Shown here: piece after piece, positions 15,578 to 60,689 of the stretch
Layout: each line of letters starts with the position of its first letter
How positions within the stretch are numbered: position 1 is the stretch's first letter
Assembly (NCBI RefSeq): GCF_036226685.1
Contig: NZ_CP109009.1
Coordinates: 3,534,001 to 3,598,000, forward strand
Direction: 5' to 3'
DNA: 64,000 nucleotides
DNA from: Streptomyces sp. NBC_00690
Lineage (GTDB): Bacteria; Actinomycetota; Actinomycetes; Streptomycetales; Streptomycetaceae
Position numbers and translations under genes: made by a program
Notes under the pieces: model-generated
Seen by the model: only the letters and a program-made list of their open reading frames with translations
Told to the model about the DNA's origin: nothing
Database searches by the model: none

Positions 15578-17176
15578 TCAGACCGGGCTGGTCGCCTCGG
15601 CGGATGCGGATGCGGATGCGGGTGCAGATGCGGAGGGCAGCGGGTCGGGGGCGAGAGCGCCTTCCATGTCGACCCAGCGGTCGTTCCAGGCGAAGCCGTG
15701 TTCCGGGCCGCGCTGCCAGGTGTGGGTCACCCGGCCTTCGGGGTCGCGACCGAAGGCGGACAGTCCGCCCAGGGGCCCCAGCACGACGGCGGGGTCGGCG
15801 CTGAGATGGCCGTGCAGCGGGGTCCAGGCCGACCACGGACCACCCGTACCGCCCTGCCAACGATGGTGCAGCCCACCATCCACACCCCGCGCGAACAGCA
15901 CCATCCCACCATCACGCCCCACCAACGCCGTAGGACGCCCCACCACCGCACCCTCCATATCCACCCAACCCTCATTCCACGCATGCCCATGCTCAGGCCC
16001 CCGCTGCCACGTATGCGTCACCCGACCCCCCGGATCACGAGCAAACACCGACAACGAACCGTTCGGACTCAGCACGACGGCGGGGTCGGCGCTGAGATGG
16101 CCGTGCAGCGGGGTCCAGGCCGACCACGGACCACCCGTACCGCCCTGCCAACGATGGTGCAGCCCACCATCCACACCCCGCGCGAACAGCACCATCCCAC
16201 CATCACGCCCCACCAACACCGCAGGACGCCCCACCACCGCACCCTCCATATCCACCCAACCCTCATTCCACGCATGCCCATGCTCAGGCCCCCGCTGCCA
16301 CGTATGCGTCACCCGACCCCCCGGATCACGAGCAAACACCGACAACGAACCATTCGGACTCAGCACCACCGAAGGGTCACCGGCCAATCTGCCGCCCAGA
16401 CGGACCCAGTCCGGGGCCCATTCCCCCGCCTCCGACTGCCAGGTGTGCCACAGCTCGCCGTCCTCCCCCCGTAGGAAGACGGCGAGCTTGCCATAGCGGC
16501 CGACCAACGCATACGGGCGGCCCACGGCGCCCGGTGCAGGTCGGCCGAGCCCGGTCCACGCCGACCAGGCGCCGCCCGGGGCGTTCTGCCAGCGGTGGGT
16601 GACGCCGCCCGCCGGATCGACTCCGAAGATCACCATGCCGGTGCCGGTGTCGACGACCGAGGGGACGCCCACACTGACGCGCGGCACCCAGTGCGGTCCC
16701 TGGCCCCCGGTCCACCAGCTGGTCTGTTTCCGGGCGCCGGCCCAACCGAAGCTGAAGTGGATGTGGTCGGTGTGAGGGCTGCTGCCCCGATAGGGCTGCC
16801 ATCCGGCGCTCGACCGGTTCGCCATCCAGATACGGCGATTCCAGATCATGTACATGATTCCGAAGCGGCGGACGAGCGCATGGGCGTTGCCGTGCCGGTC
16901 GGTGGCCAGGAGCCAGTTGATGAGGTCGTCCGCCAGATGCTCCTGGCCGGCCAGATCGACCCCCCAGTCCCAGGCCCGGCCCTCCTTGTGTTCACTCTGG
17001 CCGCCGCTGCCGCAGGCCCGGCTGATCCCCAGGTTGGACGTGCCGGGGTAGGCGGCCAACAGCAGGTCACGGAAGTCCAGGACCCCCGGCTTGGCCGTGG
17101 GATCGCAGTCGCGCTGGGGCTCGTACAGCGCGTAGGGGTCGATGTCCGGGCCGAAGTCGGGTGCTGTCGGTGCCAT
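15578..17176 (-). CDS. M15-like D,D-carboxypeptidase domain fused to a lectin-like beta-propeller
   Basis: A 532-residue protein in two parts. Residues about 1-150 carry the zinc-ligand pattern of M15/VanY-type peptidases and related extensin-like domains: SEHKEGRAWDWGVD (H63, D70) and HTDHIHFSFG (H138/H140). Such enzymes trim peptidoglycan stem peptides. Residues about 165-510 are repeats of a four-strand unit (DPAVVL..SVFARDP.GRVTHTWQ..PGW.W...) of the PLL/tachylectin-like propeller kind, which can bind sugars. Two 97-residue units are almost identical even at DNA level. The Ser/Ala-rich tail looks like a linker. No signal peptide is visible, although an extracellular role is expected. The start has an ideal GAGGAG site. 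Confidence 0.8.
   Translation of the reverse strand: MAPTAPDFGPDIDPYALYEPQRDCDPTAKPGVLDFRDLLLAAYPGTSNLGISRACGSGGQSEHKEGRAWDWGVDLAGQEHLADDLINWLLATDRHGNAHALVRRFGIMYMIWNRRIWMANRSSAGWQPYRGSSPHTDHIHFSFGWAGARKQTSWWTGGQGPHWVPRVSVGVPSVVDTGTGMVIFGVDPAGGVTHRWQNAPGGAWSAWTGLGRPAPGAVGRPYALVGRYGKLAVFLRGEDGELWHTWQSEAGEWAPDWVRLGGRLAGDPSVVLSPNGSLSVFARDPGGRVTHTWQRGPEHGHAWNEGWVDMEGAVVGRPAVLVGRDGGMVLFARGVDGGLHHRWQGGTGGPWSAWTPLHGHLSADPAVVLSPNGSLSVFARDPGGRVTHTWQRGPEHGHAWNEGWVDMEGAVVGRPTALVGRDGGMVLFARGVDGGLHHRWQGGTGGPWSAWTPLHGHLSADPAVVLGPLGGLSAFGRDPEGRVTHTWQRGPEHGFAWNDRWVDMEGALAPDPLPSASAPASASASAEATSPV
15780..16361. repeat. 291-bp tandem duplication within the propeller coding region
   Basis: Copy 1 (15780-16070) and copy 2 (16071-16361) are 291 bp each (97 codons) and differ at only a few bases, for example CCAACGCCGTAGG versus CCAACACCGCAGG and CCGTTCGG versus CCATTCGG. 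Adjacent repeat units outside this stretch are clearly diverged. This points to a recent duplication or ongoing gene conversion. Frame is kept, so the duplication adds one full repeat of the propeller. Confidence 0.9.
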
Positions 17177-22995: not shown

Positions 22996-24318
22996 ATGGC
23001 TCTTGGGGAGGGCTGCCCGTCCGCGTATTCAGCACTGGAAGAGCTGATGCGCCGACGCCTGGGCAGAGAATGTCTGTATGTGCCGTCATGCCGTTTGGGG
23101 CTCTACATCGCGCTGCGCCACTGGTGCCCGCCGGGCGGACGGGTGTTGATGTCACCCGTCAACGACGATGTGATCTTCTTCGTCGTCCTCGCCGCAGGAC
23201 TGCGCCCGGTGCAGGCGCCGCTGCGCGCCGACGACGCCTCGATCGACGTCGATGCGGTGCCCGCGTCGCTGTGGTCCGGTCTCTCGGCCGTGCTCACCAC
23301 CAATCTGTACGGAAATCCCGACCCCGCACCCGAACTGCGGGCCCGCTGCGACCGACTCGGCATCCCCCTCCTTGAGGACGCCGCACACGCCATAGGCAGC
23401 GAGGTGGCCGGCCAGCCCGTGGGAAGCTTTGGTGACGCGTCCGTCTTCAGCCTCTCCAAACACACGGGAGCCAAAACGGGCGGCTTCCTCGCCGTCGCCG
23501 ATCCGGCGCTGCGGGGGACACTTGAGCGGGCCCGGGACGAACTCCTCCAGCCGACGCGGCTGACGGCGGAACTGACCTACGGCCTGCGACCGTACGCCGA
23601 GGCCGGTGTGCGGGGACTGCGGCTCACGGGAGCGGCCCGGGCCGCCCTGAGGCTGCTCGGCCTTGAGGAGCGCGAGGACATCCGAATGGCACTGCGGCCC
23701 GGCGAGCTGAAGGACGCGGTCGCGGTCGCCCCCGCGCTCGACGACTTCGACTCCTGGATACGAGTGGACATGCACGACTACCGACTCAGCCCGGGTAGAA
23801 CGCGCCTACGGCGCACCGAGCGACTGCTCAACCGATTGGAACCGAGGCTGGACGCCTGCCGCAGCGGTACGGAGCGCCTCGCCGCCTCCCGCTGGGCGGC
23901 CCCGCACTCGGGACCCCACCAGCCCCTCTTTCGCGTACCCCTGCTGGTGGATGACCGGACGGCGGCGATGACCGCGCTCGCCCGGCACCGGATCACCACC
24001 GGATACCTCTACGACCCGCCGCTCGACACCTATGCGAGCGAGGCGTTCACCGACCCCTCGCCGGCACCCGGCAGCGCCGACTACTTCGCGCGGCACGCGC
24101 TGCCCGTCGATCCGCTCCGCGCCGAGCAGGTCATGTCGATACTGCACCGGTCCGGCATACGACCGGCGCCACCCGCTCCCGATGCCTCCCGCCCCACCGA
24201 TCCGTCCAGCGGCACCAGCCGGACCACCGAGGTGGCGACGGGCCTACGCAGCACCGCAGCACCGCACCCGAGGACCGCGGCGGGACACCCCGCCACCCAG
24301 GGCGAGACCGGTGGCTGA
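22996..24318 (+). CDS. DegT/DnrJ/EryC1/StrS-type sugar aminotransferase
   Basis: A 440-residue PLP-dependent aminotransferase of the sugar type, which turns a keto-sugar nucleotide into an amino sugar. Family marks are YVPSCRLGLYIAL, LTTNLYGNPDP, LLEDAAHAIGS (D128 for the PLP ring nitrogen) and SVFSLSKHTGAKTGG with the Schiff-base K155. The last 60 residues are a Pro/Thr-rich tail that belongs to no domain. It is the first gene of the plus-strand half of the polysaccharide cluster and overlaps the next gene by eight bases. GGGGGAC precedes the ATG. The normal DegT C-terminal region is shortened, so an unusual substrate is possible. Confidence 0.85.
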   Translation: MALGEGCPSAYSALEELMRRRLGRECLYVPSCRLGLYIALRHWCPPGGRVLMSPVNDDVIFFVVLAAGLRPVQAPLRADDASIDVDAVPASLWSGLSAVLTTNLYGNPDPAPELRARCDRLGIPLLEDAAHAIGSEVAGQPVGSFGDASVFSLSKHTGAKTGGFLAVADPALRGTLERARDELLQPTRLTAELTYGLRPYAEAGVRGLRLTGAARAALRLLGLEEREDIRMALRPGELKDAVAVAPALDDFDSWIRVDMHDYRLSPGRTRLRRTERLLNRLEPRLDACRSGTERLAASRWAAPHSGPHQPLFRVPLLVDDRTAAMTALARHRITTGYLYDPPLDTYASEAFTDPSPAPGSADYFARHALPVDPLRAEQVMSILHRSGIRPAPPAPDASRPTDPSSGTSRTTEVATGLRSTAAPHPRTAAGHPATQGETGG

Positions 24319-26611
24319 CATCACCCGACTGCGCAAGCCGTCCAATCCCGGCTCCGGGGACGCCCCGGTAGATCCGGGCCCACCCGACGTGCACGATCCG
24401 CGGCCCCCCGGGGAGATCCCGGAGCCGGCCGCGGGAGAACCGGCCGGGGACGCGGAAGGCGGCAGCGGAGACTCCATGTTCCGCAACGCCTACATGCTGA
24501 TGCTCTCCACCGGAGTCTCCGCGGGGCTCGGACTCGGCTTCTGGCTCGTCGCCGCCCGCTACTACAGCAAGGACGCCGTCGGCGAGGGTTCCGCGGCGAT
24601 CGCGGCGATGCGACTGCTCGCCTCCATCACCGCGACCACCATGATCGGCGCGGTGGTGCGCTACGTACCGCGCGCCGGACGCGCAACCGGTCCGCTGGTG
24701 TGGCGCACCTACCTGGCCAGTTCGCTCGTGGTCTGTCTGGCCTCGGTGGTCTTCCTCTTCACGCTCGACCTGTGGGGACCTTCGTACGAACCGCTCGACG
24801 GCGTCGGCCCCGGGCTCTTCTTCATCGCGGCCTGCGTCGGTTGGGCGCTGTTGACCCTCCAGGACGGAGTGCTCACCGGTCTGCGCAAGGCCGTCTGGGT
24901 GCCGGTCGGCAACGCCGTCTTCTCCATCGGGAAGCTGCTGCTGCTCGCCGCGTTCGCCGCGACCCTGCCCGTGCTGGGGATCTTCGTGTCCTGGGCGGCG
25001 GCCATGGTGCTGTCGGTGTTCCCGCTGGCCTGGCTGATCTTCCGCAAGCTGATACCCCAGCAGGCGGCGGCCGACCGGGACCGCGAGCCGCCGCGGATGA
25101 AGGAGATCGGCCGCTTCCTCGCCGGTGACTCGGTGGGTTCGCTGTTCTCACTGGCGATGATCAACCTGCTGCCGGTGATGGTCGCCGTCAACTTCGACGC
25201 CGAACACAACGGCTTCTTCTACATCGCGTACACGGTCGGCGGCACGATGGAGTTCATGGCCATCAACATGGCCTCGTCGCTCACCGCGCACGCCTCGCAC
25301 AGCCCCGAGACCCTGGCCGCCGGCGTACGCGGAGCCCTGCGCCGGATGGCGCTGCTGTTGGTGCCGGTCGTGCTGTTCCTGGTGCTCTTCGCCCCGCTGA
25401 TCCTCGCCCCCTTCGGGGCCGCCTACGCCGAGAACGGCACCACGGTCCTACGGCTGCTGGCCGCCGCAGCGCTGCCCCGGGTCGCCGTCGAGTTGTACAT
25501 CGGCGTGCTGCGCGTCCAGGGCCGCACCGGAATGCTCGCCGCGCTCCAGTGCACCATGTGCGCGCTGGTGCTGGGCAGTGCGGCGATGCTGCTCGGCGAG
25601 GTCGGCATCGCCGGCGCGGGCTGGGCGATGCTCGGCTCGATGCTGCTGATGGCGGTCGTGTCCGCACCGGGGCTGCGGGCCACGCTCGTCGGCCGGGAGC
25701 CCGCGCCTTCGCGGACCGCCAAGGTGCTGGGCCGCCTCGCCCGCTCGCTGCGCAAGGACGCAGCACCGGACGTCGAGTACGGCACCAGTTGGGCCCGCAA
25801 GGCCGCCGAGCGCCGCGAGGCGGCGGCGGAGGAGTACGCCAAGGAGTACGGCGAGGACTGGGCCCGCCAGACGGCGTACCTGCGCGGTGTGCACGACGAC
25901 ACCGCGACACCGGCGTTCGGCATCCCCATGTACGTACCGGACCGGACCGCGCAACAGGCCGCACAGCAGCGGGCCGCCAGTACACAGGTGTCGGTCAGCG
26001 ATGCGGCCGAGGGTCGGATCGCGCTCACGCTCTGGGTGCTGCTGGGGCTGGCGACCGTACTGTTCTGGGCGCCGCTGTTCCGGGCCCCGAACATCACCGG
26101 GGGCGAACTCTCCGGGACCGAGTTGATGAAGGCGCTGCCGCCCATCACCCTGACCGCGGGCGTACTGCTGATCGTGGTGCACAGCGCTGCGCTCTCCCTG
26201 CTGCGTCCGCGTCCATGGCTGTTGGGCGCCGGAATGCTGGCCACCTTCGCCGCTCTGCACAGCGCTCCCGCGGTGCTCGGCTGGGAACCGGAGCCGGTGG
26301 AGGGCGCGTGGTACGAGACACTGGCACGCTTCCTCGCGTCGGCCGGGGGGATGGAGAGCACCGAGCCCCTGTTGCGCTGGCTGCCGACCGTCTGCCAACT
26401 GTTCTGCCTGGTGGCGGTGCTGGCACTGGCACGCGGCCTGGAGCTTCCGGTGCCGGCCCAGTGGGGGGTCCTCTGGCTGCTCGCGGTGTGTGGTTGGGCA
26501 CTCCAGCGCCCGCTGGCACCCGTTGCGCTGCCGCTTCAGCTGATCCTTGCCTGTGCGGCATTGGCACTCATCTGGATACGCGCGGCGCGTAGTACGCCGT
26601 CAAGGAACTGA
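24311..26611 (+). CDS. Wzx-like polysaccharide flippase with extra C-terminal membrane domain
   Basis: A 766-residue membrane protein. Residues about 55-475 have the 12-helix composition of the MOP superfamily (Wzx/MATE) lipid-linked sugar flippases: MLMLSTGVSAGLGLGFWLVAARYYSKDAVGEGS, FLAGDSVGSLFSLAMINLLPVMVA and so on. A charged cytoplasmic linker (about 480-575, EYAKEYGEDWARQTAYL) follows. A second block of about five to six helices (580-766) contains WVLLGLATVLFW and ALHSAPAVLGWEPEPVEG and is not part of a standard flippase. It starts with GTG inside the aminotransferase gene (eight-base overlap). The probable job is moving a lipid-linked unit outward, with the added domain perhaps linking export to polymerisation. 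Confidence 0.75.
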   Translation: MADITRLRKPSNPGSGDAPVDPGPPDVHDPRPPGEIPEPAAGEPAGDAEGGSGDSMFRNAYMLMLSTGVSAGLGLGFWLVAARYYSKDAVGEGSAAIAAMRLLASITATTMIGAVVRYVPRAGRATGPLVWRTYLASSLVVCLASVVFLFTLDLWGPSYEPLDGVGPGLFFIAACVGWALLTLQDGVLTGLRKAVWVPVGNAVFSIGKLLLLAAFAATLPVLGIFVSWAAAMVLSVFPLAWLIFRKLIPQQAAADRDREPPRMKEIGRFLAGDSVGSLFSLAMINLLPVMVAVNFDAEHNGFFYIAYTVGGTMEFMAINMASSLTAHASHSPETLAAGVRGALRRMALLLVPVVLFLVLFAPLILAPFGAAYAENGTTVLRLLAAAALPRVAVELYIGVLRVQGRTGMLAALQCTMCALVLGSAAMLLGEVGIAGAGWAMLGSMLLMAVVSAPGLRATLVGREPAPSRTAKVLGRLARSLRKDAAPDVEYGTSWARKAAERREAAAEEYAKEYGEDWARQTAYLRGVHDDTATPAFGIPMYVPDRTAQQAAQQRAASTQVSVSDAAEGRIALTLWVLLGLATVLFWAPLFRAPNITGGELSGTELMKALPPITLTAGVLLIVVHSAALSLLRPRPWLLGAGMLATFAALHSAPAVLGWEPEPVEGAWYETLARFLASAGGMESTEPLLRWLPTVCQLFCLVAVLALARGLELPVPAQWGVLWLLAVCGWALQRPLAPVALPLQLILACAALALIWIRAARSTPSRN

Positions 26612-26628: not shown

Positions 26629-29514
26629 GTGCAACAACGAGCCACTGACACCGGGAAACCCGTGGCACCCCCTGGCGAACGTGTCCCTGACGAGCCCAGC
26701 GACGCACCCGTACAGGACCAGTCCACGATGGCGCTGTCCGTCGTGGACCTCCGCAAGGCGCAGCAGGCGGCGGCGGAGCGGAAGGCCGAACCGGAGGACT
26801 CAGCGAAGGCCGAACCGGAAGACAAACCGGAGGACTCAGCGAAGGCCGAACCGGAGGACGGGCCGACCGACGGCCTGAAGACCGAACCGGAGGGCGGCCC
26901 GAAGGGCGGGGCGAAGGTAGGGGCCGAGCCGGCTCAGGAGCAGCCGGGCACGACCCGACCGGCGTCGAAGGACGGTCGGCCGGAAGCGGATTCCGCCGAG
27001 GAGCGGCCCAACGAGTCGACCATGGCGCTGTCCGTCGCCGACCTGCGCAAAAAACAGCACGCAGCAACCAGCCCAAAGACAGCAGAACCCACCGAGGAAC
27101 GACCCAACGAATCCACCATGGCCCTCTCCGTCGCCGACCTCCGCGAAGCACAAAAAGCGGCACAGGAAGCGGCCCGACAGAAGGCAGCACAGAAGGCGGC
27201 CCGGCAGCAGGCCGACACCGCCGAGGAGCGGCCCAACGAGTCGACCATGGCGCTGTCCGTCGCCGACCTGCGCAAAAAACAGCGCGCAGCAACCAGCCCA
27301 AAGACAGCAGAACCCACCGAGGAACAGCCCAACGAATCCACCATGGCCCTCTCCGTCGCCGACCTCCGCGAAGCACAAAAAGCGGCACAGGAAGCGGCCC
27401 GACAGAAGGCGGCCAAGCGAACGGGCCGCACATCGCCGGACGAGTCGCTGAACGAGTCGACGCTGGCGCTCGCGGTTGCCGATCTCAGGATGGCGGAGGC
27501 CCGAAGGGCGGCTGCGGCCAACGGGACCGCTCTGGACGACCAGGCCACGATGAACCTGTCGGTCGCCGGTCTGCGGGCCGCGGTCACCGAGCGGGTGCGT
27601 TGGCCCCAGTTGCTCAGACTGGCGGCTCCACTGGCCGTGGGGCTGGTGCTGTGGGCGGTGGCGATGGCGCTCACCGACACCTCGAACCTGACGGACTACG
27701 GGCTCGTACCCGAACTCCCGATCATCTTCTGGGTGGGGCTGGCGACACTGACGGTCGGCTTCTGGGTGGTCGTCCGCGATCCCCAACGAAGCAACTGGTG
27801 GCCCTTCGCCTACACCGTGGGCCTCCTGGTGATGGAACGCGCCACGACGGCGGTCGTCTATCCCACCCCGCTCTACGCCTGGGCGTGGAAGCACGACGCG
27901 GTCATCGACCACCTGATCGACGCGGGTCGTCTCCAGCGTGGTGCGGAACTGGGCGACATGGCCGTGTACGACCAGTGGCCGGGATTCTTCACGGCGCAGG
28001 CCGCACTGGTGAAGCTCACCGGCGCGGAGACCGCAGCGTCCTTCATGGCGTGGTGGCCGCTGTTCTCCAGTCTGCTGCTGCTCGCCCCGCTGCTGCTGAT
28101 CTACCGGACGTTCACCCAGGACCGTCGACTGGTCTGGACGGCGGTCTGGCTGTTCTACGTCGCCAACTGGGTCGGTCAGGACTACTACTCGCCCCAGTCG
28201 CTCGCCTTCGCCCTGCATCTGGGGGTCATCGCGGTGGCGTTGCGGCGGGCGGAGCGTAGGGCTCCGGGGCGGCGCTCCCGCCAGATGGTGTGGACCGCGC
28301 TGCTGGTGCCGTTGATCGCCGGCATCGTGATCGCCCACCAACTGACGCCGGTGATGCTGGCGGTCAGTCTCGGTTCGCTGCTGCTGATGCGGCGCTATCG
28401 CGACTGGACACTGCTGATCATCCTCATGTTGGTGTTCCTCTCCTGGAATCTGACCGCGTCGCTGCCGTTCCTCAAGGAAGCGGTCCCCGACATGATCAAT
28501 TCCTTTGGCAAGGTCGCCGACAACCTGGAGCGGGGCTATGGCTCCAAACCGACGGGTACGGGCGCGCTGGTCGCATCCTGGGCCGCGCGGCTGCTGTCGG
28601 CCGCCGTGCTCCTGCTGGCGGCCGTGGGGTTGGTGCGGGGCGGCAAGCTGCTGAGACATCGGGCCCGGCCGCTGTTGCTGCTGGCCGTGATGCCCCCGAT
28701 GCTCGCCATCGCCAATGGCTACGGCAGCGAAATGATCTTCCGGGTGCTGATGTTCATGCTGCCGGCGATCTGCTTCTTCGCGGCTGCGGCGCTCCTGCCG
28801 GTGCCCCGGCCGCTGGCGGCCGAACCCGCCGGGCAGGGCCGTCCGACCACCGTGAAGGGACTGCGCTACGGCGTGGTGCCGGCCGTGGTGCTGGTGGTCC
28901 TGACGGCGCTGTTCGTGCCCAGCTACTCGGGTAAGGACCGGCTCAGCTACTTCCCGCCGGAGGAAGTCGACCTGGTGCAGCAGCTGTTCGACCAGGCGCC
29001 GAAGGGCTCTCTGGTCGTTGCCGCACATCGGAACTATCCCCTCGCGTACGATTCGTACTGGGATGTCGGGCACTACTGGTTCCTGGACGACGCCAAGACG
29101 CACGTCGACAAGATCGTCAAGGATCCGGCCGGCACCCTGGCGTCGGACATGGGGGGCGTGGAAGCACCGGGCAAGGCGTATCTCCTGCTCACCCAGGGTC
29201 AGATCGCCAACTCGGAGATGAACGGCATGCTCACGGGGGACGATCTGCGTCGCATCGAGCGTTCGGTGGCTGCCTCCCCGCTCTTCAAGGAGTTGGGGCG
29301 CAACAGCGCGGGTGTCTTCTTCGAGCTCAAGCGCCCCGCGGCGCCGCCCGCCAAGGCCGACGCCAAGACCCCCGACACCGAGACGGCCGACACCGAGGAC
29401 AGAGCGCAAGAGAAGGTCGCACAGGAACCCGAGGCCACGGCCGGGAGAGCGGACACAGCGGCCACTGCGGCCGGTTCGCTCGATGTCGCCGGCCTCACGA
29501 GGAGGACTCCATGA
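26629..29514 (+). CDS. Large polytopic membrane protein with seven N-terminal STMALSVADLR repeats
   Basis: A 961-residue protein in the polysaccharide cluster. Residues 1-322 are cytoplasmic and low in complexity but contain seven copies of a 13-residue motif with consensus [DN][EQ]STMALSVADLR, at about 30, 128, 160, 203, 235, 275 and 304. Spacers are Ala/Glu/Lys/Gln-rich, including AEPED repeats. From 323 to about 735 there are ten or so membrane helices of the GT-C/polymerase type (YDQWPGFFTAQAALVKL lies in the first outer loop). An outer domain of about 170 residues and an acidic Ala/Thr-rich tail follow. It is probably a glycosyltransferase or polymerase; no catalytic motif is certain. 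GTG start 17 bases after the flippase gene. Confidence 0.75.
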   Translation: MQQRATDTGKPVAPPGERVPDEPSDAPVQDQSTMALSVVDLRKAQQAAAERKAEPEDSAKAEPEDKPEDSAKAEPEDGPTDGLKTEPEGGPKGGAKVGAEPAQEQPGTTRPASKDGRPEADSAEERPNESTMALSVADLRKKQHAATSPKTAEPTEERPNESTMALSVADLREAQKAAQEAARQKAAQKAARQQADTAEERPNESTMALSVADLRKKQRAATSPKTAEPTEEQPNESTMALSVADLREAQKAAQEAARQKAAKRTGRTSPDESLNESTLALAVADLRMAEARRAAAANGTALDDQATMNLSVAGLRAAVTERVRWPQLLRLAAPLAVGLVLWAVAMALTDTSNLTDYGLVPELPIIFWVGLATLTVGFWVVVRDPQRSNWWPFAYTVGLLVMERATTAVVYPTPLYAWAWKHDAVIDHLIDAGRLQRGAELGDMAVYDQWPGFFTAQAALVKLTGAETAASFMAWWPLFSSLLLLAPLLLIYRTFTQDRRLVWTAVWLFYVANWVGQDYYSPQSLAFALHLGVIAVALRRAERRAPGRRSRQMVWTALLVPLIAGIVIAHQLTPVMLAVSLGSLLLMRRYRDWTLLIILMLVFLSWNLTASLPFLKEAVPDMINSFGKVADNLERGYGSKPTGTGALVASWAARLLSAAVLLLAAVGLVRGGKLLRHRARPLLLLAVMPPMLAIANGYGSEMIFRVLMFMLPAICFFAAAALLPVPRPLAAEPAGQGRPTTVKGLRYGVVPAVVLVVLTALFVPSYSGKDRLSYFPPEEVDLVQQLFDQAPKGSLVVAAHRNYPLAYDSYWDVGHYWFLDDAKTHVDKIVKDPAGTLASDMGGVEAPGKAYLLLTQGQIANSEMNGMLTGDDLRRIERSVAASPLFKELGRNSAGVFFELKRPAAPPAKADAKTPDTETADTEDRAQEKVAQEPEATAGRADTAATAAGSLDVAGLTRRTP
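26995..27444. repeat. 225-bp tandem repeat encoding motif pairs
   Basis: Block A (26995-27219) and block B (27220-27444) are 225 bp (75 codons) apart and nearly identical until about 27411. Differences are few, for example CAGCACGCA versus CAGCGCGCA. Each block carries two copies of the motif with different spacers (RKKQ and REAQ types), so the pair was duplicated as a unit. Confidence 0.85.
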
Positions 29515-29954
29515 AGCACCGCCCCCTCGCCATCCGACTGCTGACTCCCGCCGCGGGCCTGGTGGCCATGGCCGCCACCGCCCTGCCCGCCGCGTCTCCG
29601 CTGCGAATAGCCCCCGTGGCCCTGTTCCTCGCCGCAGGCCCCGGCTTCGCCGTCCTGCGGATCTGCGGTCCGGCCCTGAACCGCAATCGTGCGGTCGGGC
29701 CGGCGGAGAGCTGGGACCGGAACTTCGAGCGGGACTCGGACCGTATCGAGCAGTTCCTCCTCGTCATCCTGTTGAGCCTGAGTGCCAGCGTCATCGTCGC
29801 CACGGCGTTGATCGCGGTCGAACTCTTCAGCGGGTTCCTGGTCCTGGCGCTGCTCACCCTCGCAACCATGCTCGCCGCCTGCTGTCCGCAGCTGCCTCCC
29901 ACCATCGGAAGGCACCGATCGGCACGCGTGGCATCACCGCCTCGGAAAGGCTGA
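29511..29954 (+). CDS. Small membrane protein of the polysaccharide cluster
   Basis: A 147-residue protein with two hydrophobic segments near the N-terminus (IRLLTPAAGLVAMAATALPAA and IAPVALFLAAGPGFAVLRI) and two towards the C-terminus (FLLVILLSLSASVIVATALIAV and FLVLALLTLATMLAACC). A charged loop (ESWDRNFERDSDRIEQ) lies between them. No family is recognised. It begins inside the stop of the large membrane protein (ATGA at 29511-29514), so it is coupled to it and is probably an accessory subunit. The hydrolase gene follows five bases later. Confidence 0.75.
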   Translation: MKHRPLAIRLLTPAAGLVAMAATALPAASPLRIAPVALFLAAGPGFAVLRICGPALNRNRAVGPAESWDRNFERDSDRIEQFLLVILLSLSASVIVATALIAVELFSGFLVLALLTLATMLAACCPQLPPTIGRHRSARVASPPRKG

Positions 29955-29959
29955 ACTCT

Positions 29960-31048
29960 GTGACGGAACCCCGACGCCCCGAGCCTGGGGCGCCAGGCAT
30001 TCTTCGCAGGCCGCACGGACGACGAAAGCTGTGGACCCTGTCCGCGGCTCTCGTCGGCGTGCTGCTCGTGGGGACCCTCACCCTCCAGAACACCATGGCG
30101 GACGACTCCAAGTCCTCCGTGGCCGTGGACCCCAAGTGCAAACCGACCGAATTGCTGGAGCCCCGGTGCGGGGCCTGGTTCGGTGCGTACGTCCGACATG
30201 AGAAGCCGGACCTGGAAGAGAAGGTCCTGGCCTACGAGAAGCGCATCGACCGCAAGCTGGACATCGTCTACGCCTACCACGACATGTCCACGGACGGTCT
30301 GGAAGGCCAGTTGCTGACCGACCAGGAGAAGCGGGTCGGCAAGGACCGCATGCTGCTGCTGTCCTGGGAGAGCAAGTGGTGGGGCGGCACACCGCAACAG
30401 CAGCCGAAGTGGCCCCAGATCTCCTCCGGTGCGCTCGACCGGACCGTGATCGACGTCCAGGCCAAGCGGATCAAGGAGTACGGGAAGCCGGTCTTCCTCT
30501 CCTTCGACCTGGAGATGGACACCCGGACACCAGCTGAGGGCACTCCGGCGCAGTACGTGGCGGCCTACCGGCACATCCACGACCGATTCCGCGCGTTGGG
30601 CGTCACCAATGTGGTGTGGACGTGGATCATCACCGGCTACTCGGGGCACAACAAGCTCTTCCCGCAGCTCTACCCGGGCGATCGGTACGTCGACTGGGTC
30701 GGCTACAACCAGTACAACTACTACCGCTGCCACGATGCGCCGTGGATGACGTTCGAGCAGACGCAGAAGACGGCGCACGCATGGATCCGGAAGAACATCT
30801 CCGGCACCAAGCCGTTGATGCTGTCGGAGTTCGGAACGGCGGACGATCCGTCCAAGCCCTCCGCCCAGGCCGGCTGGTACAAGGAGGTGCCGCGGGTGGT
30901 GAAGGAGCTCGACGGTGTGAAGGCGGCGCTCCAGTGGAACTGGCGTGACCCGGGCCCGCACTGCGATCTCTCGCTCGCGCGGGACGCATCGTGGAAGAGC
31001 TTGAAGAAGGCCGTCTCCGATCCGTACTTCAACCAGCCCAGGCCCTGA
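29960..31048 (+). CDS. GH26-like endo-glycosidase, membrane anchored
   Basis: A 362-residue protein with an N-terminal signal anchor (LWTLSAALVGVLLVGTLTL) and an outer domain resembling glycoside hydrolase family 26 (beta-mannanase clan, TIM barrel). Supporting pieces are GAWFGAYVRHEKPDLE, KPVFLSFDLEMDTRTPAEG (possible acid/base Glu), TNVVWTWIITGYSGHNKLFPQLYPG, VDWVGYNQYNYYRC, and KPLMLSEFGTADDP (likely nucleophile Glu). It is the last gene of the plus-strand polysaccharide operon. It probably trims or releases the polymer made by the cluster. The GTG start follows GGAAAGG, and a strong terminator follows the gene. Confidence 0.8.
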   Translation: MTEPRRPEPGAPGILRRPHGRRKLWTLSAALVGVLLVGTLTLQNTMADDSKSSVAVDPKCKPTELLEPRCGAWFGAYVRHEKPDLEEKVLAYEKRIDRKLDIVYAYHDMSTDGLEGQLLTDQEKRVGKDRMLLLSWESKWWGGTPQQQPKWPQISSGALDRTVIDVQAKRIKEYGKPVFLSFDLEMDTRTPAEGTPAQYVAAYRHIHDRFRALGVTNVVWTWIITGYSGHNKLFPQLYPGDRYVDWVGYNQYNYYRCHDAPWMTFEQTQKTAHAWIRKNISGTKPLMLSEFGTADDPSKPSAQAGWYKEVPRVVKELDGVKAALQWNWRDPGPHCDLSLARDASWKSLKKAVSDPYFNQPRP

Positions 31049-31255: not shown

Positions 31256-32071
31256 CTAGCCTGCGAAGACCGGACCCTTGATCGCCGCGCGGGCCCTGCG
31301 GAACAGCCGCCAGCCCACCGTCTGGAACGAGTCCGGGAAGGGTGCCATCGGCGCTCCTCTTCCCTCCATCCACTCCTCGACGTCCTTCACCGTGTGCGTG
31401 CACCTCAGGATGAGGCGCGCGATGCGGTACGCCTCGTCCGTCTGGGAGCTCAGGGCGTGGCGTACCGCCACCGCCGAGACGTACCCCTCGTGCAGAGCCG
31501 CCTTGCGCACACCGCGGCTGTTGTACCCGTGGGGGTACGCCAGGTGCTGCACCTCGTGCCCCAACACGTCTTCCAGCACGGACTTCGACTCGCGCAGCTC
31601 ACGGCGCAGCGCCTTGCCCGGCAGGGTGTCCAACTGGGCGTGGGTGACGGTGTGGGCCCCGACCTCCATCCCGTACTGCTCCAGGAGGGGTGTCTGCTCC
31701 AGCGTCATCATGGGTGCGGGTGGCAGCAGGCTGCGCCGGCCCGGGGTGATCGCCCCGGTGGTGAGGTAGGCCGTCGCGGGGAGCGAGCGGGAGGCGAGCG
31801 CCTCCGCGGTCGGCCCGGGCAGATCAGCGAAGCCGTCGTCGAAGGTGAGGATCACGGGCCGCTCGGGCAGCCGTTCCCCGCCCGCGAGATGGGCGGCGAG
31901 GGCGCTGACCGTCACCGGTGTGCGCCCACTGGCGACGATCGCGTCCAGCTGTGCCTCGAAGTCTCTCGGGGTGACCGTGAACTCCGCGATCCACTCCGGT
32001 GGGTCGTCCATGACGGCGTGGTACAGCAGGACGGGGATATGAGGCGCGGTCGCCTCACCGCCGTCGTTCAT
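31256..32071 (-). CDS. Polysaccharide deacetylase (NodB homology)
   Basis: A 271-residue carbohydrate esterase family 4 protein that would remove acetyl groups from N-acetylated sugars. NodB motif 1 is LTFDDGF (D78, D79) and motif 2 is GAHTVTH (H140, H144); LAYPHGYNS is close to motif 3. No signal peptide is visible, so it may act inside the cell on a precursor, or be exported in another way. The ATG at 32071 overlaps the stop of the glycosyltransferase gene (ATGA, 32068-32071) and follows GAGGAG. It is the last gene of the minus-strand half of the polysaccharide cluster. Confidence 0.88.
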   Translation of the reverse strand: MNDGGEATAPHIPVLLYHAVMDDPPEWIAEFTVTPRDFEAQLDAIVASGRTPVTVSALAAHLAGGERLPERPVILTFDDGFADLPGPTAEALASRSLPATAYLTTGAITPGRRSLLPPAPMMTLEQTPLLEQYGMEVGAHTVTHAQLDTLPGKALRRELRESKSVLEDVLGHEVQHLAYPHGYNSRGVRKAALHEGYVSAVAVRHALSSQTDEAYRIARLILRCTHTVKDVEEWMEGRGAPMAPFPDSFQTVGWRLFRRARAAIKGPVFAG

Positions 32072-33357
32072 CTCTGCTCCTCTCTGTCCCACGGCAGGGC
32101 TACGCCGCGGACCCGACGCCGGGCCTTCGCGTACCCGATGGGCCCCGCCAGCATGCCGCGGCGCTCCAGCCGTGAGAGGTGGCGCGGCCAGGGGTAGTCC
32201 TGGGCGCCGTGCGCACCGGGCACGGCTGCGTCACCGGAATCACGGTGAGCCGTGATCGTACGGGCATGGGCCAGGCCACGGGGCAGTTTCCGCAGCAGAG
32301 AAGGGAGCATGGAGGGGCGTCGGACCAGGGTGGCGGTGAGGAAGGCGGTGAGCCCGGCGCCGTATCCGTACGCCTGGTTCTTCAGGTCCTGCCAGGTCTC
32401 GCGGTGGTGGTGCCAGACCAGCGCTTCGGGCGAATAGCGCAGCTTGTGACCTGCGGCGAGGACGCTGACGAAGGCATAGAGGTCATCGCCGCCGCGGGCC
32501 GGTGTGCCGGTGCCGGTGGCGGGGTCGAAGCCGCCCGCGGAGCGCAGCGCAGCCGCGCGGAAGGCCATGTTGGCGCCGGAGCCGAAACTGCCCGCGGTGA
32601 AGGGGAAGAGCGGTTCGTCGGCCGGTGGGTCGGCCGGGTCGTACAGGCGCGGTGCGAACCCCTTGGCGAAGCCGCCGTGGCTCTCCAGCAGGATCTGTGC
32701 GGGAGTGCCGAGTTGGGCGGGCAGGATCAGGCCCGTCGCGCAGCCGAGTGCCGGGTCGGCGGCGAAGGGGGTGGTCAGTGCGGTGAGCCAGTTGGGGTCG
32801 GCGATGACATCGTCGTCGGTGAAGGCGAGGACCTCGCCACCTGCGACGGCGACTCCGCGGTTGTGGGCGATCGCGAGCCCGGGGACCTCTTCGCGGGCGT
32901 AGCGGACCCGGCCCTCGTACTTCTGCTCGACCAGATCCTGCGTGGCAGTGGTCACCGGTGCGTTGTCGACGACGATGACCTCGAAATCGGGGTGGTTCTG
33001 TGCGAGGAGCGAGTCCAGTGCACGGGCGAGCGAGTCGGCGCGCTCCCGGGTGGCGACGATGACGCTGGTGCGCGGCAGTGGGCCGGGGGCGGTGAGGACG
33101 GGCTGCTCGGGGGCGGAGCGGGCGAGCAGGGCCCTGGCTTCGGCGGCGACCGCATCCGCCGCGTTCTTCCCGGGGGCCACCCGGCAGACGACGGTCGCCA
33201 CGGGCCGGCCGTTCAGCCGCACCAGCGCATAGACGTCACCGCCTCCGATCTCGGCCCCCGAGCCCAGCGCGGGGCGGAAGTCGAGTACGGCGCCCTCGGG
33301 TCCGTCCAGGTCGAGCTGGGCGACCTGGATCGGAGGCAGCTTGGGTGGGTTTTCCAT
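32068..33357 (-). CDS. Family 2 glycosyltransferase
   Basis: A 429-residue GT-A fold glycosyltransferase. An N-terminal domain of about 95 residues (ALVRLNGRPVATVVCRVAPG) precedes the catalytic part with SVIVATRERADSLARALDSLL, EVIVVDNAPV, and the metal-binding LAFTDDDVIADPNW (D181-D183). A later GGDDLYAFVSVLAAG gives the acceptor/base region and WHHHRETW a conserved tail. It is probably cytoplasmic. The ATG at 33357 is behind AAGGAAGAAC; the longer open frame upstream is not supported. It sits between the acyltransferase and deacetylase genes and would add one sugar of the polymer. Confidence 0.9.
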   Translation of the reverse strand: MENPPKLPPIQVAQLDLDGPEGAVLDFRPALGSGAEIGGGDVYALVRLNGRPVATVVCRVAPGKNAADAVAAEARALLARSAPEQPVLTAPGPLPRTSVIVATRERADSLARALDSLLAQNHPDFEVIVVDNAPVTTATQDLVEQKYEGRVRYAREEVPGLAIAHNRGVAVAGGEVLAFTDDDVIADPNWLTALTTPFAADPALGCATGLILPAQLGTPAQILLESHGGFAKGFAPRLYDPADPPADEPLFPFTAGSFGSGANMAFRAAALRSAGGFDPATGTGTPARGGDDLYAFVSVLAAGHKLRYSPEALVWHHHRETWQDLKNQAYGYGAGLTAFLTATLVRRPSMLPSLLRKLPRGLAHARTITAHRDSGDAAVPGAHGAQDYPWPRHLSRLERRGMLAGPIGYAKARRRVRGVALPWDREEQR

Positions 33358-33404
33358 GTTCTTCCTTGCTGTGTAAGACGTGCGGCCGGTGAGGGAACCG
33401 GCCG

Positions 33405-34544
33405 TCAGTTGCCGCGCAGTTTGCCGATGCGCGTCAGCGTCTGCTGGGCGAGCCCGGCGAGCCTCGGCCTGTTGCGGACGAAGCCGTGGGCTCTGCGCGA
33501 GGGCTCCCGACTCACCCAGTACAGGGCGGCTCCCGCGCCCGGCCGGGTGGAGGAGCCCTCGTGGACGCGTAGTTGTCCGGTCTTGAGGGAGTCCTTGTAC
33601 TCGGCCGAGCCGCGCCCCATGTCGAGCATGCCGATGCCTTCCGCCGCTGCGGCTTCCGCCATCCGCAGATGCAGTATCAGCCCTGGCGAGTACTTGGCGA
33701 ACTCGGGATCGTAGGCCGGGAACCAACAGGAGAGCACGGTGGAGGAACGCAGCCCGAAATGTGCCGCAATCGGGCGGTCTTCGACATAGAGGACGGAGAG
33801 AACGCCGGAGCAGCCGGGCGCCCGGGTCTCATGGAGGAGTCCCACCAGGGTGTGGATCCAGTCCTTGGCGAACCGGTCACGGCGTCCCGTCCTGCGGTAC
33901 TGGGCGGACTTCCACTCCATGAGGGTGCGCAGCATGGCCGGGTCGCGCTCGTCGAAGACGAAGCGCACCTCGCCCACCTGCCGGCCGAGCTTGCGCTCCT
34001 TGGCCAGTGTGCTCTTGAGGAACTTGGGCGACTCGCCGCGGAGCTGCTCCTCGTAGACGTCGTACCCCTCGCCGATTTCGATCACCGGTGAGTCGAATCC
34101 CTCGGCGACGGCGGGGGTGAACAGTTCCTGGCCCGCTTCGAGGTTGTCGAACTCCCAGGCGGTGAGGGAGCACGCACGCAGCAGATCGCGTGCGGTGATG
34201 TCGAGGCCGGACTTGAGGACGGCACCCTGGCAGTCGGAGACGCCGAAGCCGATGGCCCTGCCGTGGCCCAGCGCACCTCGCTCGTACGGGAAGAATCCGG
34301 CGTCCTCGCCGTCCTGGCGCAGCACGGCCACCCGGGCGGCGGGCCGTACCCTGCCGACGGTGAGGGTGAACTCGGGCTCCATGAAGGGGCTCGCGGGCAG
34401 GCCGGTCTTGGCGCGCAGCATCCGCCAGGACTCGATCTCGTCTTCCCCCAGCTGCTCGGGTTTGACCACTCGGATGCGGACGCCCTCATTCTGAGCACCG
34501 CAGTTCTGAAAACCGCTCAACGCGACCCCCCGGTCCCTCCCCAC
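33405..34544 (-). CDS. CelD/BcsL-like GNAT acyltransferase
   Basis: A 379-residue protein with two GNAT-like domains of the CelD/FemAB-like type found in polysaccharide clusters. Recognisable parts are SWRMLRAKTGLPASPFMEPEFTLTVG, FLKSTLAKERKLGRQVGEVRF, and AAHFGLRSSTVLSCWFPAYDPEFAKYSPGLILHLRMAEAAA followed by LDMGRGSAEYKDSLKTG, the usual acyl-CoA-binding end of the family. It would acylate a sugar of the polymer. First gene of the minus-strand half of the cluster. The GTG at 34544 is seven bases after GGAG; a TTG eight codons further is a fair alternative start. Confidence 0.85.
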   Translation of the reverse strand: MGRDRGVALSGFQNCGAQNEGVRIRVVKPEQLGEDEIESWRMLRAKTGLPASPFMEPEFTLTVGRVRPAARVAVLRQDGEDAGFFPYERGALGHGRAIGFGVSDCQGAVLKSGLDITARDLLRACSLTAWEFDNLEAGQELFTPAVAEGFDSPVIEIGEGYDVYEEQLRGESPKFLKSTLAKERKLGRQVGEVRFVFDERDPAMLRTLMEWKSAQYRRTGRRDRFAKDWIHTLVGLLHETRAPGCSGVLSVLYVEDRPIAAHFGLRSSTVLSCWFPAYDPEFAKYSPGLILHLRMAEAAAAEGIGMLDMGRGSAEYKDSLKTGQLRVHEGSSTRPGAGAALYWVSREPSRRAHGFVRNRPRLAGLAQQTLTRIGKLRGN

Positions 34545-55702: not shown

Positions 55703-57082
55703 ATGACCACCGCATCCGAAACCGCCAGAGCCGCAGAGGTTCCGGACGGCGACGGTCCGCTGAAGCGGGCCATCGGGCCGAAGTTGCTCATCCTGTTCGT
55801 GATCGGCGACATCCTCGGCACCGGAATCTACGCAACGACCGGCAAGGTCGCTGGCAAGGTCGGCGGCGCCCTGTGGCTTCCGTTCCTCATCGGCTTCATC
55901 GTCGCCGTGCTCACCGCGGCCTCGTACGTGGAACTGGTCGGCAAGTACCCCAAGGCCGCGGGTGCCGCGCTGTACACGCAGAAGGCGTTCAAGGTCCCGT
56001 TCGTCACCTTTATTGTCGCGTTCCTGGTGATGTGCTCCGGCCTGGCGTCGGCCAGTGCCGCGGCACGGGCGTTCAGCGGTGACTACTTCCTGGAGTTCAC
56101 CGACGCCGTCCCGGCCACCCTCATCGCGATCCTCTTCATCCTCGCCCTCGCCGCACTCAATCTGCGCGGTGTCTCGGAGTCGGTGAAGGCCAATGTGGTG
56201 CTGACGATCGTCGAGCTCAGCGGACTGGCCATCATCCTCGGCATCGGCGCATGGGCGGTGTTCTCGGGCGACGGCGAGGCATCACGGCTCACCGAGTTCG
56301 AAGCGTCCGGCACCGGATACGCGCTGATCACCAGCGTGTTGGGAGCGACGGCCCTGGGCTTCTTCGCCTTCGTCGGCTTCGAGGACTCGGTGAACATGGC
56401 CGAGGAGACGAAGGACCCGATCCGCACCTTCCCCCGCGCGATCTTCATCGGGGTCGCCGTCACGGGAACCATCTATGTGCTGGTGGCGCTGGTCTCCTCA
56501 CTCCTGGTCGACCATCGCACCCTGGCGGGCTCCAGCGGCCCCCTGCTGGAAGTGGTCAAGGCCGGTGGCGTGGACTTCCCGCCCAAACTCTTCGCCCTGA
56601 TCGCCCTGTTCGCGGTCACCAACTCCGCCCTCATCAACATCATGATGGCCTCGCGGCTCTGCTACGGACTGGCCAACGAGGGCATCCTGCCGCGCGCCAT
56701 GGGCAAGGTGCTCCCCGGCCGCTGCACTCCCGTCGTCGGCATCGTGTTCGTGTCGGTGCTCGCGATCGGTCTGGTGACCACCGGCGAGATCGAGGGGCTC
56801 AGCGACACCACGGCCTTCCTGCTGCTCTGCGTCTTCGCCGTGGTCAACATCGCGGTCCTGGTGCTGCGTCGGGACCGGGTCGCCCACAAGCACTTCCGCA
56901 CTCCCACCGCGCTGCCCGTGCTCGGTGCGGTGACCGCACTGATCCTGGCCAGCCCGCTGGCGGACCGGGATGCCGAGGTCTACATCCGGGCGGGTGTGCT
57001 GCTCGCCATCGGCATCGTCCTGTGGGCGGTCAACAAGGCGGTGTTGAAGGCGCGCGGCGAGAGCGTCGCCGACAACGGCTGA
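55703..57082 (+). CDS. APC-family amino acid permease
   Basis: A 459-residue amino acid-polyamine-cation superfamily transporter with about 12 membrane helices. The first helix holds FVIGDILGTGIYATTGKVAGKVGGA, the G-[ST]-G-I-type unwound substrate motif. Later marks are YVELVGKYPKAAGAALYTQKAF and GFFAFVGFEDSVNMAEETKDPIRTFPRAI, the family signature in the sixth helix and loop. The substrate is an amino acid of unknown kind; proximity to hut genes (3.4 kb) allows, but does not show, histidine. ATG at 55703 follows GGGAGAGAGGCCC. A heptamer repeat and a terminator follow. Confidence 0.9.
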   Translation: MTTASETARAAEVPDGDGPLKRAIGPKLLILFVIGDILGTGIYATTGKVAGKVGGALWLPFLIGFIVAVLTAASYVELVGKYPKAAGAALYTQKAFKVPFVTFIVAFLVMCSGLASASAAARAFSGDYFLEFTDAVPATLIAILFILALAALNLRGVSESVKANVVLTIVELSGLAIILGIGAWAVFSGDGEASRLTEFEASGTGYALITSVLGATALGFFAFVGFEDSVNMAEETKDPIRTFPRAIFIGVAVTGTIYVLVALVSSLLVDHRTLAGSSGPLLEVVKAGGVDFPPKLFALIALFAVTNSALINIMMASRLCYGLANEGILPRAMGKVLPGRCTPVVGIVFVSVLAIGLVTTGEIEGLSDTTAFLLLCVFAVVNIAVLVLRRDRVAHKHFRTPTALPVLGAVTALILASPLADRDAEVYIRAGVLLAIGIVLWAVNKAVLKARGESVADNG

Positions 57083-57134
57083 CAGGCCACAGGTCACAGG
57101 CCACAGGTCACAGGTCACAGGCCACAGGTCACAG
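57083..57134. repeat. Heptanucleotide tandem repeat CAGGYCA, seven copies
   Basis: Seven copies of CAGG(C/T)CA run from 57083 to 57131, starting right at the permease stop codon. The order of the variable base is C,T,C,T,T,C,T. A partial CAG follows. Confidence 0.9.
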
Positions 57135-60464: not shown

Positions 60465-60505
60465 TTCCGTACTCCGTCCGTCGATCCTGTTGCTACTCGT
60501 TGCCG

Positions 60506-60562
60506 TTGCTCGGTGCTGCTGTTGTTGCTCAGTGCTGCTGTTGTTGCTCGGTGCTGCTGTTG
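60506..60562. repeat. 19-bp tandem repeat, three copies, upstream of the membrane protein gene
   Basis: TTGCTCGGTGCTGCTGTTG is present three times in tandem (60506-60562), the middle copy with one change (TTGCTCAG...). It lies between the divergently read start of the membrane protein gene and the end of the RpiR gene, and may affect the promoter of the former. The composition resembles the GTGCTGCT repeat at 54612. Confidence 0.85.
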
Positions 60563-60689
60563 TTTGCCCATCGCCAGGCTGCCGTCACGCGCCGGGATCA
60601 TGGGCGACCGGCTCGGTGTCGTGCGGCGGCTGTGCCGCGGAGATTAGCGACGATTTCTGAGTGCCGTCTGAGAATCCGCGCACGGCCGA

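Follow-up and report, generated by a model that had tools for sequence, protein, structure and literature searches.

Phosphorylation of Thr17 in the cellulose synthase-like enzyme CslA is required for glucan synthesis (PMC13432765), and this residue is the comparable site that we found in the literature searched. Sites depending on the Mycobacterium tuberculosis kinase PknA are enriched for acidic residues at positions -1 and -3 to -6, Pro at -1, and Leu or Val at +3, with Pro at +2, a basic residue at +4, and an acidic residue at +7 as further features (PMC7164672), while the residue at +3 of the phosphothreonine (pT+3) contributes to the selectivity of forkhead-associated (FHA) domains (PMC5549992). 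Here we describe a repeated threonine motif in the N-terminal tail of a GT-C-type membrane protein of 961 amino acids (aa) from Streptomyces sp. NBC_00690 (9.17 Mb genome), encoded in a stretch of 64,000 nucleotides (C1:3534001-3598000), which we refer to as the window. The motif is real and selected, is restricted to one clade and has been amplified repeatedly, and it is plausibly a multiplied regulatory site.

The motif, T-[M/L]-x-L-x-V-x-x-L-R, occurs seven times on the + strand within residues 30-316 of the 961-aa protein (287 residues; 39 bp per copy; Table 1). When the 325-residue tail was shuffled 20,000 times, 5e-05 matches arose on average and one at most, compared to the seven observed; the array noticed in an earlier note on this DNA is real. 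We determined the consensus from 33 complete copies, which comprise 13 distinct 13-mers from 11 proteins. Thr, Leu at +3, Val at +5, and Arg at +9 are identical in 33 of 33 copies, position +8 is Leu or Ile, position +1 is mostly Met, and Thr is replaced by Ser, Val, or Ala in none of them. Among the 13 distinct forms, the residue preceding Thr is Pro in six, Ser in five, and Ala and Gln in one each, and position -3 is Asp in eight, Asn in four, and Pro in one. Given that Ser at -1 varies, what is conserved is a single Thr together with L+3, V+5, L/I+8, and R+9, and of the Ser-Thr pair previously thought to be invariant, Thr stands and Ser (5 of 13 forms) does not.

Selection on the motif was assessed by Nei-Gojobori counts between the window gene and its five-copy orthologue from S. 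albipurpureus (locus L005), a single species pair in which the motif columns were picked for being conserved. The motif (65 codons) showed 23 synonymous and 2 non-synonymous changes, corresponding to a ratio of non-synonymous to synonymous substitution (dN/dS) of 0.022, as opposed to 0.443 for the aligned linkers (159 codons), the uncertain alignment of which inflates linker dN. The respective values were 0.076 for the membrane core (565 codons) and 0.885 for the C-tail (56 codons). Change counts of motif and linkers were clearly distinct (Fisher p 1e-7), and the tighter constraint on the motif than on the core is a trend that does not reach significance (Fisher p 0.12). Copies 1, 6, and 7, whose orthology is fixed by their flanks, alone contributed 14 synonymous changes and 1 non-synonymous change. 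In an alignment-free count of 10-residue segments from the tails of the 13 members of the motif clade (see below), 1,652 segments matched 0-2 of six motif positions and 33 matched 6/6; three matched 5/6, all where the annotated start removes the Thr, and none matched three or four, which argues that motif copies do not decay. Together, these data support purifying selection on the motif while the linkers change.

Copies 2-5 lie in two tandem units (26967-27191 and 27192-27416) that are 93% alike over 225 ungapped bases, and Tandem Repeats Finder (TRF) reports the same 225-bp unit with 1.9 copies and 98% matches at 26993-27410. This pattern bears out the suggestion that the array grew by internal duplication. 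Linkers inside the units are nearly as similar as the motifs there, and since these four copies stem from a recent duplication, linker drift is unreadable from them and their exact identity is by itself no proof of selection. The proposal that the motif is selected while its spacers drift holds between species, but cannot be read from the window by itself. A motif-free orthologue from S. viridiviolaceus (P0119) carries another repeat, EASLRP-like, within residues 80-140 of the same tail, which points to a possible general tendency of this region to expand repeats. These features would also fit a mostly neutral origin, in which slippage and unequal crossing-over act on a dispensable, disordered tail and the motif is kept by chance or by recent homogenisation, as would the presence of seven, seven, and six copies in three proteins of almost no core divergence and the lack of the motif in most relatives (133 of 145). 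The low dN/dS of the motif in the face of 23 synonymous changes argues against this view, and so do the conservation of the same positions whatever the copy number (one, two, three, or five to seven) and the lack of intermediate-scoring segments. Neutral slippage and crossing-over likely explain the changes in copy number and the linker sequence; for the motif itself this account is hard to hold, and we consider it improbable.

The distribution of the motif was determined in 146 proteins, i.e. the window protein and 145 relatives from two homologue searches (best 120 of 264 and best 120 of 642 matches); removal of one fragment (P0121) left 145 proteins for the tree. All named near relatives are from Streptomyces. 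Complete copies were found in 11 of the 146 proteins using a whole-protein regular expression, all inside one clade of 13 (support of 100 in the Shimodaira-Hasegawa-like approximate likelihood ratio test, SH-aLRT), and P0014, with a copy cut by its annotated start, brings the carriers to 12 of 13. One copy each is present in P0009, P0011, P0014, P0018, P0019, and P0020 (S. tsukubensis), whereas P0004 has two, P0006 three, and P0003 (S. albipurpureus, counted in L005) five. P0002 has six and P0001 seven, the start-cut copy included in both, and the window protein has seven. The latter three have almost identical cores (end branches of 0 to 0.003) and partly different linkers, indicating that copy number changes fast. 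The linkers of P0006 are of their own kind (GTGKGKGK type), which points to separate expansion in at least two lineages, and possibly in three with P0004. The remaining 133 of 145 tree proteins (132 outside the clade and P0005) have no motif although the gene neighbourhood is widely kept, which makes the motif a clade-specific addition rather than a part of the core enzyme. The earlier note had named two outcomes that would speak against its claim: orthologues without the motif at an intact locus, which is what we find, and confinement to one strain with no conservation above the linkers, which the occurrence in several species and a conservation well beyond that of the linkers contradict. In many proteins outside the clade, MAFFT aligned the last copy with a shorter segment next to the membrane (DPAMDLADLP or VTDLSDLPP). 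A loose regular expression recovers such a segment in 106 of the 132 proteins outside the clade, and the motif may have grown out of it.

Among 392 genomes including the host, matches at E 0.003 were restricted to the host and one other genome (G186), with 22 candidates scored per genome among those listed. The tail alone, used as a database query, matched P0001-P0003 only (7995 candidates scored), and the expression T[ML][AGNSDTE]L[SADT]V..L[RKP], applied to the remaining reading frames in the window and in 79 related loci, recovered only the 961-aa gene and its S. albipurpureus orthologue. A profile of 13 motif segments gave 13 matches in the host genome at E up to 10, seven of them in the 961-aa protein and six partial ones (E 1.4 to 8.3) that we take as chance, as we do the single partial matches (E 0.012-0.099) in 16 of 149 other Streptomyces genomes (150 with the host). 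The one match of the motif to solved structures was at chance level (E 1.6), and the family profile compared by sequence to the PDB likewise gave one match (E 0.68). Exact motif strings and broader terms retrieved nothing pertinent from the limited collection of papers searched; the accessible parts of an S. rimosus phosphoproteome paper contain nothing about the 961-aa protein (PMC9600765), and those of another article no useful site motif (PMC4389566).

The 961-aa protein matched no family in Pfam or NCBIfam; however, structure comparison of its predicted model identified a GT-C fold in the membrane part, in line with the earlier assignment. With regard to a Wzy-type polymerase, the best fold matches of the model are GT-C enzymes, and the label 'polymerase' is not supported; the protein probably helps to build a surface sugar polymer. 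The first membrane helix is predicted at residues 325-348, just behind the repeat array, and is immediately followed by D350, at least 90% conserved in 39 sequences and a candidate for the acidic catalytic position of the first outer loop. In GT-C enzymes, the loop following the first transmembrane helix faces outside, and the repeat tail should therefore be cytoplasmic. Relatives including P0005 and P0010 have the same N-terminus, MQQxAT[DE]xG[KR]P, which supports GTG at 26629 as the start, although in the near relatives P0001-P0003 the annotated start is a Met within copy 1. The tail is rich in Ala, Glu, and Pro (46 Lys+Arg and 58 Asp+Glu per 322 residues) and is predicted at low confidence, with helices following several motif copies. 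As the fold model is mediocre (mean predicted local distance difference test score, pLDDT, of 58.7), we make no claim about tail structure based on it alone. The copies could be amphipathic helices on the inner membrane face, the array tethering the tail or sensing the membrane; hydrophobic Met, Leu, Val, and Leu with a basic end, together with the Ala/Lys/Gln-rich helices predicted after some copies, would suit such a role. In amphipathic helices, Leu, Ile, and Val exchange freely, and the strict conservation of Thr, Leu, Val, and Arg is more than would be expected of this type of element. The first half of the motif is also not predicted to be helical in five of seven copies (at low confidence), and we regard this option as having little chance of being correct.

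We propose that the N-terminal tail is a disordered cytoplasmic regulatory arm in which a Hanks-type Ser/Thr kinase would modify the invariant Thr of each short linear motif. The phosphorylated (or phosphorylation-gated) copies would then be recognised by a partner, which may be an FHA-domain protein reading phosphothreonine with Leu at +3. Binding would control how active the polysaccharide-building enzyme is or where it is placed, with several copies providing higher avidity or a graded switch. We assign this phosphothreonine-type array a probability of about 0.4. Thr as acceptor with Leu at +3, a feature of kinase sites, is present in 33/33 complete copies, and the single-copy form DQPTMGL fits the PknA preference at -3, -1, and +3. 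The host genome encodes candidates for both roles (47 matches to protein kinase domains, 43 of them above the cut-off, and eight to FHA domains).

Comparison with CslA sharpens the earlier proposal of a kinase site or docking element, which we consider plausible. A search of 41 genomes gave CslA matches in 32, the other 9 having none at E 1e-100, and we read the 22 closest N-termini, one per genome; in the host, the cslA-like gene adjoins a glxA-like gene. These N-termini mostly contain DPSxTTQLR[VIL], with the first Thr of the pair numbered 17 in 13 of the 20 site-bearing N-termini, and from the residue numbering Thr17 of S. albus CslA would be this first Thr. Thr with L+3 is found in 20 of 22, V/I/L at +5 in addition in 19, and Arg at +9 or +10 as well in 16. 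As a background, 443 Thr residues in 18 other window open reading frames (ORFs) picked as plausible genes included 8 with L+3 and V/I/L+5 and none that also had the Arg. The CslA segment (L118:1605-3542 and CslA loci L119-L137 and L139) is kept in most of the 22 Streptomyces genomes whereas the flanking sequence drifts, a pattern compatible with a functional phosphosite.

Several observations weigh against phosphorylation. The likeness to CslA was noticed once the motif was already known, two CslA relatives (L138 and L140) are without the site, L122 has no V/I/L at +5, and in eight distant CslA-like loci (L141-L148) none of the four readable N-termini contains TTxL, with L145 showing an unrelated T-x-x-L-x-L. 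CslA itself was hyperphosphorylated without PknB (PMC13432765). The motif lacks the +2 and +4 features of PknA sites and has that at +7 in part, and its multiplied form, NESTMAL, which places Asn at -3 and a Ser directly before the Thr, is a poorer kinase fit than DQPTMGL. Ten locus proteins gave no FHA or Ser/Thr kinase match in Pfam. P0005 (S. inusitatus), at the base of the motif clade, has no motif, and the many motif-free orthologues show that the enzyme does not need it. Finally, the constraint on V+5, L/I+8, and R+9 is close to that on the Thr and exceeds what FHA recognition by itself should require. This strictness, the partial PknA fit, and the motif-free orthologues leave considerable room for multivalent docking independent of phosphorylation, in which an extended T-M-x-L followed by a helix from near the Val (V-x-x-L-R) binds a locus enzyme, a scaffold, or a polarity protein and the Thr serves in packing or as a hydrogen bond. 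Such docking is an alternative only slightly less probable than phosphorylation. In addition to the comparable conservation of L+3, V+5, L/I+8, and R+9, the predicted helix begins at V+5 or one residue later in five of seven copies (a weak indication, as pLDDT is mostly <60), and the juxtamembrane segments of other orthologues keep the hydrophobic and acidic positions without the Thr. However, a Thr that is invariant in 33 copies with no partly decayed copy and the local match to the CslA phosphosite weigh against docking alone, and the juxtamembrane segment, recovered by the loose expression in 106 of 132 proteins outside the clade, is dispensable too. Docking at the hyphal tip, as suggested before, is not supported.

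Encapsulin cargo peptides, e.g. LTVGSLRR, resemble the L-x-V-x-x-L-R part of the motif, and a mimic of such targeting peptides could tether nanocompartments to the membrane. Family-1 cargo loading was rejected, as PF04454 had no match in the host genome (3 of 14 control genomes matched in the same search). The single SrpI-like shell gene (PF19307) is located ~2.27 Mb away, and neither its ORF, with one L-x-V-x-x-L-R string without the Thr, nor the next ORF contains the Thr motif; we view this explanation as extremely unlikely. The shell gene itself (G000:C1:5828811-5829560) adjoins an ORF that reads as polyprenyl-synthase-like.

The neighbourhood of the 961-aa gene is widely conserved among relatives (Table 1). 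Inspection of the N-termini of the upstream flippase-like proteins (many loci) and of linkers (six loci) revealed no motif. In Streptomyces sp. NPDC001273, the flippase-like and GT-C proteins are naturally fused (P0072, 1298 aa), which suggests that both proteins work together. Elsewhere in the window, a 532-aa ORF with DUF346-type repeats (P0146; 15578-17176, - strand) contains two 291-bp tandem units at 15779-16366 (98% matches), another recent in-frame duplication, and short tandem repeats are located at 57082-57134 (7/21-bp units) and 60505-60564 (19-bp units).

Table 1. Coordinates of the motif array, its host protein, and neighbouring genes (window positions, or residues of the 961-aa protein).
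Feature	Location	Strand	Basis
Motif copy 1, DQSTMALSVVDLR, Thr33	26716..26754	+	
Motif copy 2, NESTMALSVADLR, Thr131	27010..27048	+	
Motif copy 3, NESTMALSVADLR, Thr163	27106..27144	+	
Motif copy 4, NESTMALSVADLR, Thr206, codons identical to copy 2	27235..27273	+	
Motif copy 5, NESTMALSVADLR, Thr238, codons identical to copy 3	27331..27369	+	
Motif copy 6, NESTLALAVADLR, Thr278	27451..27489	+	
Motif copy 7, juxtamembrane, DQATMNLSVAGLR, Thr307	27538..27576	+	
Two tandem 225-bp units, two motif copies each, recent duplication	26967..27416	+	TRF; repeat search
Motif-free linker rich in Glu, Lys, and Pro, imperfect direct repeats spaced 12-36 bp	26767..26908	+	
961-aa GT-C-type membrane protein	26629..29514	+	ORF; predicted structure; fold matches
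N-terminal repeat tail	residues 1-324		
Membrane core and short globular part	residues 325-905		
C-tail, low confidence	residues 906-961		
Flippase-like protein, next gene upstream, no motif copy	24302..26611	+	Polysacc_synt E 2.2e-06, 27.7 bits, just below curated cut-off of 28.2 (scanned as ORF 24032-26611)
DegT/DnrJ/EryC1 aminotransferase-family protein	22996..24318	+	Pfam; synteny
Small downstream protein, no family match	29511..29954	+	Pfam/NCBIfam; synteny
GH26-like protein	29900..31048	+	24.9 bits, cut-off 20.2 (scanned as longest ORF 29312-31048); synteny
Polysaccharide deacetylase	31256..32092	-	Pfam; synteny
GT2 glycosyltransferase, true start uncertain, least conserved neighbour	32068..33726	-	Pfam; synteny
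GNAT (Acetyltransf_6) protein	33405..34544	-	Pfam; synteny

In its most far-reaching form, the phosphothreonine reading would start from one ancestral regulatory site whose core, T-x-x-L-x-V, is also that of the CslA Thr17 switch. One Streptomyces clade would have amplified this site to as many as seven copies, and the resulting cytoplasmic scaffold, tuned by its valency, would bring an FHA-type or other partner to an envelope-building complex. We consider this full version rather unlikely; it would mean that streptomycete polysaccharide synthases share a general regulatory code, T-x-x-L-x-V. If the phosphothreonine reading as such is right, the motif peptide (e.g. NESTMALSVADLREAQ) would be a natural multi-copy bait for the kinase and the readers controlling Streptomyces polysaccharide synthesis. 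Natural strains with 1, 2, 3, 5, 6, and 7 copies permit a direct comparison of output across valencies. Were the phosphorylation idea wrong, the 10-residue motif, under constraint at least equal to that on its host enzyme (a trend, p 0.12), would still need a partner.

Known systems resemble the 961-aa protein in separate respects. The GT-C glycosyltransferases AftA, ArnT, PglB/STT3, and DPY19 match its membrane part at low identity (~8-15% among the 33 best matches). AfsS, a Streptomyces regulator of 63 residues, contains three repeats of 12 residues that are thought to be crucial (PMC2267785). In the actinobacterial FHA/phosphothreonine circuit formed by FHA I of Rv1747 and Rv2623, a Thr with a defined +3 residue is recognised (PMC5549992). 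The motif reported here has the additional invariant positions +5, +8, and +9. CslA is not a GT-C enzyme, and it carries one site instead of an array, mostly without Leu at +8. Like the 961-aa protein, however, CslA is a Streptomyces membrane enzyme that makes polysaccharide, and its cytoplasmic N-terminal tail displays T-x-x-L-x-[VIL], often followed by an Arg (PMC13432765).

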